Positions 40,977 to 46,031 of a stretch of 64,000 nt of DNA are shown here, piece by piece; within the stretch, counting starts at the first letter, position 1, and each line of letters begins with the position of its first letter. The notes below the pieces were generated by a model, which made no database searches, was not told where the DNA came from, and worked only from the letters and a program-made list of their open reading frames with translations. This DNA is from Ideonella sp. A 288 (GTDB lineage Bacteria > Pseudomonadota > Gammaproteobacteria > Burkholderiales > Burkholderiaceae_C). Where the stretch lies: positions 62,001 to 126,000 of the forward strand of contig NZ_MWLO01000139.1 in the NCBI RefSeq assembly GCF_002198735.1, in the 5' to 3' direction. Position numbers and translations under genes: made by a program.

Positions 40977-41585
40977 ATGAGCGACGACCTCAAGTCCGGT
41001 GCGCTGGGCTGGCACGACACCCGCGTTCAACTCGGCATCGAGATGCGCGTGCACTTTTTCGACCCGGACGAGGTCGATGCGCGCGTCAGCTTCGTGGAAC
41101 GCTATCTCCCGGTGTTCACCCGGGCGCGACCCCGGCTGATCGGCGAGCCGCAGCAACGGCAGTCGTTCGTGGCGGGTGACCTGTCCGCGGTCGTCGACGC
41201 CGTGCTCGAGCACGGCAACGGGCTGCTGTGCCTGACCTACCGCCACACCGAGCGGCAGTTCGTCGAGCGCGAACGCTGGTCTGCGCAGGTGCGGGTGGAT
41301 GCCATGCTGCAGTCGATTGCCGGCGCGATGGCGGTGGCCGGTGCCCGGCAGCAGCCCACGGTGGCCCTGCTGCGGCTGGGCAATGCGCTGCTGCATTTCT
41401 CGCCAGGGCCACCCGTGCTCGAATGCCTGGCCACCAGCGTGGGGGCGGCCCGGCGTTACTGGAACGCGCCCAAGGCCGTCACCACCGCGCAGTTGGCCAG
41501 CTTCTGCGAGCCGCGCTTGCGGTCGCTGCCCGGCATCGGCCTGTCGGCGCCTCCGGCGTCGTGGCAGACGGTCGCCGGCACCTGA
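40977..41585 (+). CDS. Uncharacterised 202-residue protein
   Basis: Soluble, alpha/beta in appearance, with no signal peptide or membrane segment and no motif I recognise. Recognisable stretches are MRVHFFDPDEVDARVSFVER, GNGLLCLTYRHTERQF and SVGAARRYWNAPKAVTTAQL. ATG 40977 has a good site (AGGGGA). Its last 130 bp overlap the 3' end of the opposite-strand gene at 41456-42634. Third in the small-gene series. Confidence 0.65.
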   Translation: MSDDLKSGALGWHDTRVQLGIEMRVHFFDPDEVDARVSFVERYLPVFTRARPRLIGEPQQRQSFVAGDLSAVVDAVLEHGNGLLCLTYRHTERQFVERERWSAQVRVDAMLQSIAGAMAVAGARQQPTVALLRLGNALLHFSPGPPVLECLATSVGAARRYWNAPKAVTTAQLASFCEPRLRSLPGIGLSAPPASWQTVAGT

Positions 41586-42634
41586 ACCCGGCCTGAAGTC
41601 GCGAGCGCCCAGCCGTCGGTGGCGTGGTCGAGGCTCAGCCAGGTGGCCCCTGGGGTCGCCAGATCGCGCGACGCCGCCCGCTGCAGCAGCCGTTCGCAGT
41701 CGGCCGAGGTCAGGCGCAGTGCCAGCCGCTGCCAGCGGCGATGGACGAGCGGGTCGGCCCAACTGTCCTCCAGCGCCTGCCGCAGTACCGTGCGGTCGGC
41801 GGCCTGTCCCGCCGACAGCCGCCGGGCCAGCAGCGTGTGCATGAACACCTGGAAGGCCTGGCGCAGCTCGCTCGTGGGCATCAGTGCGGCCAGCGTCACC
41901 AGCCGGCGCGCATAGCCCGCGTGCAAGAACTGCAGGGTCAGCATCACCTGCACGGCCTGCACCGGGTTGAGCACGCGCACGCGGTTGGGCGGCAGCAGGC
42001 GCAGCGGCACCGTGGCGGCCACGTGGTGCGGCAGCGGCGTCGCGAAGCTCATCAGCACGCCCAGCCGGGACCATTCGGCGGCGGCCAGCGTGTCGGCGCT
42101 GCCCGCGCCATCGGCCGCCAACCGATCGGCGACCGCCAGGGCCTCGTCCCAGCCGAGCGTGGCCTTGGCGCCGGCCGCCCGTGCGCTCAGCGTGGCCAGG
42201 TTGCCCGCCGCCACACCGGCGCGGTCGCACAGGCGCACGACCCGGGCCCCGTCGTCGGTGATCGGCTCCCGGGTGACCGGGCAGGTGTCGACGGCGATCT
42301 GGCGCAGGAACTGCGGCGTCACCTGCACGTCCTCGAACACGCGACCGTCCATCCAGGCCGCCAGGCGCAACTGCAGCCAGCGGCGCACCCAGGGCGTGGC
42401 GGGCAGGGTGCGCCCGCCGAACACCGCACGGCCGTTGCGCCAGCCCTGGTGCACGGGGCTCTCAGCCTGCAGGTGGGCCATCGGCGGGGTGAGGCGATGA
42501 CGGGCGTGGTCGCGGCCGATGGCCCAGGCCACCGGGTCGACCGGCGTGCCGGCGTCGGGGGCGTGAAGGCGCAGCGCCACGGTCGGGCGGTGCGCGGCGA
42601 CGGGGGTGTCGAAAGGAAGGGCGGCTTGGGCCAT
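41456..42634 (-). CDS. Uncharacterised 392-residue protein, divergent from the WYL-helicase pair
   Basis: Soluble and mostly helical. No domain recognised. A conserved-looking segment FLRQIAVDTCPVTREPITDD (109-128, Cys118) is followed by RVVRLCDRAG (Cys136). Another hallmark is RLLPPNRVRVLNPVQAVQVM, and the C-terminal third is Arg/Leu-rich helices. ATG 42634. It is divergent from the WYL regulator with 174 bp between, so the regulator may control it. The 3' end overlaps the 202-residue gene by 130 bp. Confidence 0.72.
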   Translation of the reverse strand: MAQAALPFDTPVAAHRPTVALRLHAPDAGTPVDPVAWAIGRDHARHRLTPPMAHLQAESPVHQGWRNGRAVFGGRTLPATPWVRRWLQLRLAAWMDGRVFEDVQVTPQFLRQIAVDTCPVTREPITDDGARVVRLCDRAGVAAGNLATLSARAAGAKATLGWDEALAVADRLAADGAGSADTLAAAEWSRLGVLMSFATPLPHHVAATVPLRLLPPNRVRVLNPVQAVQVMLTLQFLHAGYARRLVTLAALMPTSELRQAFQVFMHTLLARRLSAGQAADRTVLRQALEDSWADPLVHRRWQRLALRLTSADCERLLQRAASRDLATPGATWLSLDHATDGWALATSGRVQVPATVCHDAGGADRPMPGSDRKRGSQKLANCAVVTALGAFQ

Positions 42635-42808
42635 GTCGAAGCTCCTGGGGGCGCGGCGCCGGGACACCCCGGCTGAGCGAAGTCTCCGGGCCAGGTGGCT
42701 CAAAGCGTGAGCCACCCGCGCGCGATCGCGTGCGCGGCTCGCGGGGTGGCTGGGAAACCCCTGTGGCAGACTGCGGCGACGGCAAGTCGCCGTCCCCGGA
42801 GCGTTTCC

Positions 42809-43783
42809 CTGGCCAACACCGCCCGCCTGTACAAGATCGAGATGCTCATCCGCCACAAGGGCCTGGTGAGCTTCGCGAGCCTGTTGCAGGAACTGGAGGT
42901 GTCGGCCGCCACGCTCAAGCGCGACCTCGAGTACCTGCGCGACCGGCTGGGCGCCCCCATCGTCTACGACCGCGAAGGCAACGGCTACCGCTTCGGCAGC
43001 GAGTACCGCAGCCAGAAGCATGAGCTGCCGGGCCTGTGGTTCAACGAGCGCGAGCTGTATTCGCTGCTGATGGCGCACCAGTTGCTGAGCGAACTCGACA
43101 GCGATGGCCTGCTCAGCCGCCACCTGCAGCCGCTGCTCGACCGCATCCACGACCTGCTGGGCCCGGGCGGCGAAGACGACGCCCACGCGTTGATGCGGCG
43201 CGTGCGCATCGTCAGTGCGCTGCGCCGTCCGGTGGCCAGCGAGCATTTCGAGCGTGTCGGCGAGGCCTTGCTGCGGCGCCGACGCCTGCACATGCGCTAC
43301 CTCACCCGCACCCGAGGCGAAGTGAGCGAGCGCGAGGTCTCGCCACAGCGCCTGGTGCACTACCGCAGCACCTGGTACCTCGACGCCTGGTGCCACACGC
43401 GCGAGCGGCTGCTGCGCTTCGCGCTCGATGCGGTGCAGGTGGCCAGCATTGGCGACCAGCTGGCCAAGGAAGTGCCGATGCGCCAGGTCGAGGCCGAGAT
43501 GGACGCCGGCTACGGCATCTACGCCGGCGGACAGAAGCGCTGGGCCGTGCTGCATTTCACCGCCCAGGCCGCTCGCTGGATCAGCCAGGAGCAGTGGCAT
43601 CCCGAGCAACAGGGCCGTCGCCTCGACGACGGCGGCTATGAACTGAAGTTGCCCTACGTGGACGAGACCGAGCTGGTCATGGACGTGCTGCGCCAGGGCG
43701 AGCAGGTCCGGGTCATCGAGCCTGATTCCCTGCGCGACGCTGTGCGCCAACGCCTGGCGCTGGCCCTCCATGCCTATGACTGA
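42809..43783 (+). CDS. WYL-domain transcriptional regulator (HTH-WYL)
   Basis: 324 residues if started at CTG 42809. This gives LANTARLYKIEMLIRHKG, the usual N-terminus, with GGAG seven bases upstream. A GTG at 42695 would add 38 residues of unlike composition and has no site; ATG 42841 would cut into the first helix. An HTH (about 15-60, VSAATLKRDLEYLRDRLG) is followed by the WYL domain (about 140-215, ERLHMRYL-like RRLHMRYLTRTRG and LVHYRSTWYLDAWCHTRERL) and a WCX-type C-terminal domain. WYL domains sense ligands or nucleic acids. The gene overlaps the helicase start by 14 bp. Confidence 0.88.
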   Translation: MANTARLYKIEMLIRHKGLVSFASLLQELEVSAATLKRDLEYLRDRLGAPIVYDREGNGYRFGSEYRSQKHELPGLWFNERELYSLLMAHQLLSELDSDGLLSRHLQPLLDRIHDLLGPGGEDDAHALMRRVRIVSALRRPVASEHFERVGEALLRRRRLHMRYLTRTRGEVSEREVSPQRLVHYRSTWYLDAWCHTRERLLRFALDAVQVASIGDQLAKEVPMRQVEAEMDAGYGIYAGGQKRWAVLHFTAQAARWISQEQWHPEQQGRRLDDGGYELKLPYVDETELVMDVLRQGEQVRVIEPDSLRDAVRQRLALALHAYD

Positions 43784-46031
43784 CACCCCGCCCGACACCT
43801 CGCGCAAGCCCGCGCCGCAGCTGAGCCTGCCCAACCCGCGGCATGTGCAGCGCCTGCCGGCGGGCATCGACCCCGCGTCGGCCGAGCGCATCCGCCAGGC
43901 CGCCTACCTGCTGCCGCAGACGCTGACACCCCTCGATTGCGACGACCTGCCGCCGCGCGAGGCCGAAGTGCGTTTCGAGGCCGAGGGCCTGATCCTGCTG
44001 CAGAAGGCCTTGGCCGAGCACCGGCCCAGCCGCTGGATCGCGCCGGACGCCATGGCGGCGGCGCTGCGCCACCTCGACGAGGTGGGCACCCGACCGGGCG
44101 TGCGGCCGCTGATGGCCGAGCGCACCACGGTGCTCGACACGCTGGGCCTGTCGCGCCAGGGCACTCGCTGGGACCGCCTGGTGTCGCAGGCCCTGTCGAT
44201 CGAGGTGCCGGGCCAGGACGAGCCGTGGTCGCTGGCCGTGGCGTTCCGCGTGCCGGTGGCGGCGCAGCCGGTGTGGGATTTCTACCGCACGGGCGACGGC
44301 GTGGCGCTGCGCGCGGCGCTGGGCCCGGTGCCGCCGCACCCGCAGGCCGCCGAGCTGCGGGCACACCTGCAGGGCCTGCTGGCGCGCAGCGCGATGCACA
44401 GCCCGCAGCAGCTCGACGCGCTGCTGCCGCGCCTGCAATCCGAGTGCTCGACGCCGCAGCCGCTGGCCGATCTGCTGGCTGCCTGCACCCGCGCGCAAGA
44501 TCGCTGGGAGCACCAGGTCAACGAGCAGGCCACGCTGGCCGGGCTGACCCGCGAGCTGGCCTTCCAGGGCTACCCCGACAGCTTCACGCTGGCGCGGCAG
44601 CTGCAGCGCACGGTGACGCTCTACGTCGGTCCGCCCAACAGTGGCAAGACCCACGCCGCCTTCGAGCGCCTGGCACAGTGCGAGGATGGTGCCTACCTGG
44701 CGCCGCTGCGCCTGCTGGCGCTCGAAGGACGCGACCGCCTGGTGGCCCGCGGCGTGCCCTGCAGCCTGCTCACCGGCGAGGAGAACGTGCCGGCCGACGG
44801 GGCGCGCGTGGTGTCCAGCACCATCGAGATGGTCAACACCCGCCGGGCCATCGACGTGGCGGTGATCGACGAAGCGCAGATGGTGTTCGACAGCAGCCGG
44901 GGCTGGGCGTGGACGCAGGCCATCGTCGGTGTGCCGGCCAACGAGGTGATCGTCATCTGCTCGAGCTTCGCGGTGTCGGCGATCGAGAACCTGCTGGGCC
45001 TGTGCGGCGAGCGCTGCACGGTGCGCCAGTTCGAGCGCAAGCAGCATGTGGAACTGCTGCACGCCGCGGTGCCGATCGCCGCGCTGCGCGAGGGCGATGC
45101 GGTGGTGGCCTTCAGTCGGCGCGACGTGCTGATGCTGCGCGACCAGGCGGCGGCCAACGGCAAGTCGGTGTCGGTGATCTACGGCGCGCTGCCGCCGGAG
45201 GTGCGGCGCCGCGAGGCCGAGCGCTTCGCCGGTGGCGAGTCGCAGATCCTGGTGGCCACCGACGCCATCGGTATGGGCCTGAACCTGCCGATCCGGCGGG
45301 TGCTGTTCAGCACGCTGGTCAAGTTCGACGGTGAGGCCGACCGGCCGCTGTCGGTGTCCGAGGTGCACCAGATCGCCGGCCGCGCCGGCCGCTTCGGCAT
45401 CCACGAGGAGGGCTTCGTCGGCGTGTTGCGCGAGGCCGAGGCCAGCGCCGCCCGCACGCTGAAGGACCTGCTGCCGCGCAGCCCGCGCGCGCCCCGCGAC
45501 TTCAAGGCCCCGGTGGCACCGAACCCCTGGCATGTGGAGACCATCGCCGACCGCCTGGGCAAGCGCAAGCTGCGCGAGGTGCTGGAGGTGTTCCGCGACC
45601 AACTGGCGCTGGACAACGCCCACTTCGCGGTGGCCGACCTCGACGCGATGATCGAACTGGCCGGTGCGCTGGACGAGCAGGCCGCGGCGCTGCCGCTGCG
45701 CGAGCGATTCATCTACTCGCAGGCGCCGGTGGACTCGCGCACGCCGGCGCAGGTGACGCAGTTCCTCGACTGGGCGCATTCCCATGCGCGCACGGGCAAG
45801 GCCGGCACGCCGTGGTTCCTGGATTCGGTGGACGGCCACAGCCGCCTCGACCGCATGGAGCAGGCCCTGCGCTCCTGCACGCTGTGGCTGTGGCTCGACC
45901 TGCGCTTTCCCGGCATCTACGGCGAGGTGCCCGAGGTGCTGGCGATGCGCGCACAGCTCAACGACGGCATCGAGCGCCAGCTGAAAGGCCAGCGGCCGCT
46001 GTGGCAGGCGCGCGGGCGCCCACGCCACTGA
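43770..46031 (+). CDS. SUV3-like superfamily 2 RNA helicase
   Basis: 753 residues. An N-terminal helical region of about 270 residues precedes the helicase core: TVTLYVGPPNSGKTHAAFER (Walker A 287-294), APLRLLALEG, CSLLTGEENV, SSTIEMVNT, VAVIDEAQMVFD (DEAQ box 367-370), SRGWAWTQAI, then VATDAIGMGLNLPIRRVLF and QIAGRAGRFG (534-543). This order is that of mitochondrial Suv3, the helicase of the RNA degradosome. The SUV3 C-terminal region is present. Start ATG 43770 lies inside the end of the WYL gene, indicating translational coupling. RNA unwinding is the likely activity. Confidence 0.9.
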   Translation: MPMTDTPPDTSRKPAPQLSLPNPRHVQRLPAGIDPASAERIRQAAYLLPQTLTPLDCDDLPPREAEVRFEAEGLILLQKALAEHRPSRWIAPDAMAAALRHLDEVGTRPGVRPLMAERTTVLDTLGLSRQGTRWDRLVSQALSIEVPGQDEPWSLAVAFRVPVAAQPVWDFYRTGDGVALRAALGPVPPHPQAAELRAHLQGLLARSAMHSPQQLDALLPRLQSECSTPQPLADLLAACTRAQDRWEHQVNEQATLAGLTRELAFQGYPDSFTLARQLQRTVTLYVGPPNSGKTHAAFERLAQCEDGAYLAPLRLLALEGRDRLVARGVPCSLLTGEENVPADGARVVSSTIEMVNTRRAIDVAVIDEAQMVFDSSRGWAWTQAIVGVPANEVIVICSSFAVSAIENLLGLCGERCTVRQFERKQHVELLHAAVPIAALREGDAVVAFSRRDVLMLRDQAAANGKSVSVIYGALPPEVRRREAERFAGGESQILVATDAIGMGLNLPIRRVLFSTLVKFDGEADRPLSVSEVHQIAGRAGRFGIHEEGFVGVLREAEASAARTLKDLLPRSPRAPRDFKAPVAPNPWHVETIADRLGKRKLREVLEVFRDQLALDNAHFAVADLDAMIELAGALDEQAAALPLRERFIYSQAPVDSRTPAQVTQFLDWAHSHARTGKAGTPWFLDSVDGHSRLDRMEQALRSCTLWLWLDLRFPGIYGEVPEVLAMRAQLNDGIERQLKGQRPLWQARGRPRH

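Follow-up and report, generated by a model that had tools for sequence, protein, structure and literature searches.

Few regulons have been worked out for WYL-domain transcription factors, a group of nucleic-acid-sensing regulators. As described (PMC12340889), DriD of Caulobacter combines a helix-turn-helix (HTH) with a WYL domain, its pseudo-palindromic sites overlap the -35 region at a constant distance from weak -10 elements, single-stranded DNA (ssDNA) bound in the WYL domain activates it, and its regulon consists of damage genes. Mycobacterial PafBC, an HTH-WYL-WCX protein which occurs as a heterodimer or fused pair and controls many genes, inserts between promoter DNA and sigma domain 4 and places itself at the -35 region (PMC11804915). 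SiwR, also mycobacterial, acts as a single regulator; the promoter of the operon next to it contains an imperfect palindrome of 19 bp, and its targets are DinB-superfamily genes (PMC10693628). Here we analyze a WYL regulator gene and the divergent gene for a 392-residue protein, referred to as unk392, in a 64,000-nucleotide stretch of Ideonella sp. A 288 (NCBI RefSeq assembly GCF_002198735.1, contig NZ_MWLO01000139.1, positions 62,001 to 126,000; the window), in which a gene for a Suv3-type helicase follows the WYL gene.

As read from sequence, the operator and promoter geometry of this pair is of the DriD/PafBC/SiwR type, and a regulon of damage genes may be shared with DriD. The palindrome found here, GGCTCA-N5-TGAGCC, differs from the DriD site, ATACGAC-N7-GTCGTAT; DriD was absent among the solved relatives found by sequence search with the WYL protein, and ssDNA sensing, as described for DriD, would apply here by analogy. 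PafBC is the best solved sequence relative. The SiwR target genes do not include unk392.

The WYL Gene and unk392 as a Conserved Pair

By sequence comparison, the WYL gene and unk392 form a conserved divergent pair. The two genes were divergent within 700 bp in 58 of the 63 loci holding both. Eight loci recorded under a second identifier had been removed from this set, and L173/L239 and L189/L234 read alike, so that about 56 of the 58 are distinct. The five loci with another arrangement were L098, L101, L103, L139 and L241; in L098 the two genes of the pair are separated by an inserted 546-aa gene, and in L101 and L103 by three inserted genes. At E ≤ 1e-10, 71 of the 220 family genomes contained a relative of unk392, some of these matches being weak or partial. 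When 106 WYL rows, a few of which are identical, were placed on a tree, the presence of unk392 in the locus required 8 changes versus 35.5 on shuffling, and the window's WYL protein fell within a 17-row clade, all unk392-linked, with support of 100/97. No published account of the pair, the operator or unk392 was found in the titles and abstract beginnings searched, which left most subscription journals uncovered and absence unproven. PMC10957082 concerns another regulator.

Operator and Predicted Promoter Geometry

Matches to GGCTCA-N5-TGAGCC at 10 or more of the 12 positions were present in all 58 divergent intergenic regions, 25 of them perfect. As controls, windows equal in length and taken from the same loci reached this level in 16 of 1160 cases, and tests using permuted half-sites did so in 39 of 2886. 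The exact palindrome occurs once in the 7-Mb genome of the window, and other genomes searched have 0-35 copies. At least two operator copies were present in 21 of the 58 regions, and in 18 of these the copies were spaced 55-57 or 65-67 bp apart. With positions counted from the operator, the unk392 side carries A28 and T32 in every region, C31 in 98%, A30 in 95% and G33 in 91%. Reading the -10 hexamer as nAnACT places the operator at approximately -39 to -23 and, because the -10-like box of unk392 lies at a fixed distance, the palindrome is predicted to cover the -35 region of this promoter, a site over -35 at a constant distance from -10. The WYL side of the 21 two-copy loci has the same spacing and an extended -10 (T24 81%, G25 95%, A28 86%).

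Where unk392 and the WYL gene are parted by other genes (L101, L103) or found on different contigs (L109), the operator remains beside unk392. In L098 just a variant, GGATCA-N5-TGATCC, is present, and no operator accompanies the weak, 42%-identical copy of unk392 in L229. For this comparison the L241 row, which had opposite-strand coordinates, was ignored, and L110 ends at the gene start.

A composite pattern of operator and box, searched in the 220 genomes, gave 79 sites, of which 56 lay immediately before unk392, 2 lay on the side of the WYL gene and 21 were elsewhere. The 56 sites fall in 56 of the 71 genomes with unk392, any site was found in 5 of the 149 genomes without it, and the reversed pattern used as a control gave 0 sites in all rows. 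Eighteen of the 21 sites elsewhere were fetched (G119, G146 and G244 were not), and 7 of the 21 were viewed only to the end of the fetched stretch. Composite sites preceded the repair genes recC in two genomes (L281 and L282; G099 and G158), recA (L291, G080) and rmuC (L289, G203), as confirmed by family models, which suggests lineage-specific repair targets. VWA-domain genes were preceded by a composite site in L278 and L279, identified by eye, and in L283, identified by family model; in L222 a VWA-like gene, again named by eye, is divergent from a WYL gene. With respect to the exact palindrome away from the pair, 26 stretches were inspected and, besides the cas3 locus L191, most held it within genes or by unrelated-looking genes.

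The WYL Regulator and Its Relatives

The WYL protein contains, in order, HTH_11 (1e-06), WYL (1e-18) and WCX (1.6e-15) domains, the layout of a WYL-WCX transcription factor. Its nearest solved relative was PafBC (4.5e-18), CapW and BrxR were also found with weak E-values, and in PADLOC it matched generic CRISPR-associated WYL models (6.6e-39). An earlier sequence-only reading of the window had pointed to WYL regulators as frequent controllers of defense loci and nucleic-acid processing, and some relatives of the protein do adjoin defense or repair genes (cas3, cas1, recC). They lie directly before cas3 in L191, L224 and, by eye, L223, before recC-recB in L218 and before cas1f in L226. Beside these distant WYL genes the palindrome was perfect before cas3 (L191) and recC (L218) and matched at 10 of 12 positions before the type I-G cas3 (L224), while no palindrome was found by the WYL gene that precedes cas1f in L226. 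WYL genes with other neighbors and a 12/12 palindrome alongside were present in L191, L217, L218, L219, L220, L225 and L228.

unk392, a Putative Degenerate HNH Protein

No family match to unk392 was obtained in Pfam, NCBIfam, PADLOC or PHROGs, and sequence search of the PDB returned nothing usable; a TetR_C_23 match at E 0.24 was far below the cut-off. Among the PADLOC defense models none was specific for unk392, and matches to Suv3 were confined to helicase-core stretches. The AlphaFold model had a mean pLDDT of 86.5 for unk392 and 94.0 for the N-terminal domain alone, with a predicted beta-beta-alpha core (E130-134, E146-150, H151-157) that resembles the one in HNH nucleases such as PacI and Cas9. 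The best structural matches of this domain were PacI (Z 6.2, 88 aligned residues, 2.9 Å) and Cas9 (Z 6.0, 75 aligned, 2.5 Å), and HNH or Cas9 appeared in the title of 27 of the 36 listed structure chains, with the tool warning that a Z below 8 may reflect a common arrangement. Foldseek gave no match below E 1 for the whole chain, and its best match to the domain alone was PacI at E 0.52.

An alignment (A1) was made from the window's unk392 and 34 of 43 references, excluding L111, L114, L115, L127, L144, L163, L174, L182 and L185 as interrupted, cut or weak. Its consensus reads HCPITRxPL ... VDRV ... AGYAAGNLAVxS ... ANxAK. In contrast to the HNH nucleases, with their conserved catalytic histidine, no histidine was invariant among the 35 aligned sequences; H117 is present in 23 of them. 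The position which we take to be that of the expected HNH histidine is occupied by arginine in 32 of 35, preceded by an aspartate in 24 of 35 which the window's protein lacks. We regard unk392 as an HNH-like protein whose nuclease activity has probably been lost. The top viral fold matches of the model were T4-like Srd putative anti-sigma factors and small uncharacterized phage proteins (best E 0.014), hinting at an RNA-polymerase-directed role, although the Srd proteins belong to another host, align with a TM-score of 0.2-0.3 and have no sequence match to unk392 in PHROGs.

The Suv3 Helicase

The helicase carries DEXQc_Suv3 (3.4e-51), Helicase_C, Suv3_C_1 and SUV3_C domains, all above cut-offs, four Suv3-type models in all, and its closest solved relative is human SUPV3L1 (7.6e-70). 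With a DEXQ core and the Suv3 C-terminal domains present, it is by sequence a genuine Suv3 homologue. Such helicases had been described in the sequence-only reading as otherwise known from mitochondrial RNA decay, which is incomplete, as a 2018 review (PMC5818665) places Suv3 in eukaryotes and purple bacteria. The gene is present in one copy in the window's genome and is patchily distributed, occurring in 15 of 21 genus genomes and 52 of 220 family genomes, two of the latter copies being just 41% identical; on these counts the idea of a fixed housekeeping gene was rejected.

Suv3 was located beside this WYL gene in one of the 12 genus genomes holding both, that of the window, and in the other 11 the two are on different contigs; G002 and G007, in which Suv3 is in pieces at contig ends, are poorer tests of linkage. 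For 18 relatives, stretches of 7.8-17.1 kb surrounding Suv3 were fetched. None contained a match to the WYL protein or unk392, and no neighbor recurred in most of these loci, the largest cluster besides Suv3 having 5 members. Suv3 was rejected as a module member on the basis of the adjacency and the 18 loci, and the RNA-surveillance or defense module proposed in the earlier reading is not supported. That reading had set against itself a fixed housekeeping helicase with no linked WYL gene in relatives and an unlinked unknown gene; of these, only the lack of a linked WYL gene was observed, whereas the helicase is not fixed and unk392 is linked. Suv3 is judged to be a stand-alone helicase gene, unlike SUPV3L1 in this respect, which in the window's genome happens to come after the WYL gene. 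In G018 (L094, named record L111) dbpA follows the WYL match after 120 bp, whereas Suv3, an RCC1-repeat gene and an EamA gene separate the two in the window, and for this reason the junction looks like a local rearrangement, in either direction.

Across the family, unk392 was present in 45 of 52 genomes with Suv3 versus 26 of 168 others (Fisher p 4.5e-21, uncorrected for descent). A distance of 8-21 kb separates the two genes in 9 further genomes, which represent 5 genera. Eight of these loci were fetched as a single piece, and in them Suv3 lies beyond unk392 as seen from the WYL gene, with varying intervening genes. In L231-L239 the block includes genes resembling queD, queE, mazG and a DnaQ-type exonuclease, named by eye. 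The proximity and co-occurrence fit an inherited chromosome block and, with no species tree to set them against, we do not interpret them as functional. No operator with at least 11 of 12 matches was found near Suv3 in L240 or L243-L245, and L242 has one, 2 kb past the end of Suv3.

Layout of the Locus

The positions of unk392, the WYL open reading frame (ORF) and the helicase in the ORF list (Table 1) confirm the three-gene layout of the sequence-only reading. The junction, described there as fused by overlap, is an overlap of the WYL stop and helicase start and no fusion; it measures 14 nt, the length stated there, if the helicase begins at the ATG at 43770, and 8 nt with the ATG at 43776. 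The 174-bp intergenic gap given there places the WYL start at 42809, but the codon at that start is CTG. A further ORF of 202 aa (40977-41585), whose start is the left edge given in that reading, is arranged tail-to-tail with unk392 with a 130-bp overlap. It has no match in Pfam, NCBIfam or PADLOC, and relatives of 43-57% identity adjoin unk392 in most genus loci and also in L109 and L110, which are stretches without a WYL gene.

Table 1. Features of the unk392-WYL locus and the adjoining helicase gene (window positions).
Feature	Position	Strand	Basis
unk392, unknown protein of 392 aa; first member of the conserved pair	41456-42634	minus	ORF; relatives in 71/220 family genomes; no family model
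HNH-like stretch of unk392, approximately residues 80-160	42155-42397	minus	Predicted beta-beta-alpha; domain model matches PacI and Cas9 HNH
-10-like box of the predicted unk392 promoter, GAGACTT on the minus strand	42680-42686	minus	A +28 / T +32 kept in 58/58 regions
Putative palindromic operator GGCTCAAAGCGTGAGCC, 12/12	42697-42713	unstranded	Sole exact GGCTCA-N5-TGAGCC in the genome; conserved in 58/58 regions
WYL-side extended -10-like box TGTGGCAGACTG	42762-42773	plus	Operator at expected place degenerate (2/12); nearest 7/12 at 42736
WYL regulator (HTH-WYL-WCX), uncertain start (CTG at 42809)	42809-43783	plus	ORF; domain models
Suv3 helicase, 753 aa, neighbor judged outside the conserved unit	43770-46031	plus	Suv3 models; relatives' loci

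Discussion

On balance we favor the view that the window holds a DriD/PafBC-like WYL activator dedicated to the degenerate-HNH protein unk392, with Suv3 separate. The WYL protein would bind GGCTCA-N5-TGAGCC, thereby occupying the -35 region of the promoter of unk392 at constant spacing from a weak -10, its WYL domain would sense a nucleic-acid signal, and it would then help RNA polymerase start at unk392 in the manner of DriD and PafBC. unk392 would be the main output, acting on DNA by binding rather than cutting, and may serve a DNA-damage or defense response. Sequence comparison itself shows the pairing, the operator, the predicted promoter geometry and that Suv3 is not linked to the WYL gene in relatives; the WYL protein is likely the binder of the palindrome, it more likely activates unk392 than represses it, and the chances that the signal is DNA damage are about even. 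More tentatively, and with rather less confidence than in the two-gene switch itself, we propose an undescribed WYL-driven DNA-damage regulon of Burkholderiaceae at GGCTCA-N5-TGAGCC over -35, the core target of which would be a new degenerate-HNH family acting without cutting on DNA or RNA polymerase, and to which individual lineages may have added recA, recBCD, rmuC or CRISPR-Cas.

Several findings weigh against this interpretation. In the loop before the end of the WYL domain, R-N-F-R-L-D-R of PafBC stands against L-R-F-A-L-D-A here, so that the loop arginines, which we take to be ssDNA-binding residues, are not plainly kept; one arginine of this loop is invariant in 12 WYL proteins. On the WYL side of the window the operator has degenerated, with 2 of 12 matches where it would be expected, and a CTG, which aligns with the ATG of relatives, serves as the putative WYL start; other in-frame starts are GTG at 42695, 42707 and 42746, while the ATG at 42842 would cut into the HTH. 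Among WYL genes with no unk392 in the locus, 27 of 38 had no site of at least 10/12 within 250 bp upstream. Most of the 21 composite sites elsewhere are near genes with no clear repair role or near none, and the HNH likeness is modest, with a top Z of 6.2 versus 5.6 for an unrelated dehydratase. It is because of the loop arginines, the degenerate WYL-side operator with the CTG start, and the WYL genes without a site that we infer, rather than state, WYL binding, activation and signal. The decayed operator and the CTG start both fall within 42736-42842 of the window, and this copy of the WYL gene may be diverging or losing function.

Repression of unk392 by the WYL protein, with release on a phage or damage signal as for CapW and BrxR of defense loci, is unlikely. 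A palindrome at -35 could block transcription as well as place an activator, and CapW and BrxR, which are reported to regulate defense systems, are among the solved relatives. However, the fixed operator-box spacing on both promoters and the weak -10 boxes suit an activator better, and PafBC is a much closer relative than either protein.

A recent capture of Suv3 behind the WYL gene in this lineage alone, with the two genes now co-transcribed, would be compatible with a WYL activator of unk392 and would account for the 14-nt overlap and for the position of dbpA in G018. We regard it as doubtful, as in this genome the operator in front of the WYL gene itself has degenerated, which makes control by the WYL protein questionable, and the rearrangement could have run in either direction.

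The palindrome might alternatively be bound by another factor or by unk392 itself, with the WYL gene a mere neighbor. The operator does follow unk392 and not the WYL gene when the two part, and many WYL genes without unk392 lack it, but this reading is quite improbable in view of the perfect palindromes beside WYL genes with other neighbors. Finally, a single RNA-surveillance or defense module of WYL, unk392 and Suv3, to which the overlap here and the Suv3-unk392 co-occurrence and proximity would lend themselves, is highly improbable given the near-total lack of Suv3-WYL adjacency in the genus, the 18 unlinked Suv3 loci, the lack of a good operator near Suv3 in L240 and L243-L245, the want of correction for descent and the varying genes in between.

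The sequence-only reading was right in its observation and half right in its interpretation: of the one module it proposed, the WYL-unk392 pairing stands and the helicase falls away. What merits attention is a conserved switch of two genes whose promoter is readable, and not an RNA-surveillance system. A suggestive overlap with a mitochondria-like helicase turns out not to be conserved. An operator, a predicted promoter geometry and one conserved target are legible in the sequences of a whole bacterial family, which makes the switch directly testable in harmless environmental species, and unk392, an unnamed family in 71 of 220 sampled genomes, gains its first functional lead.

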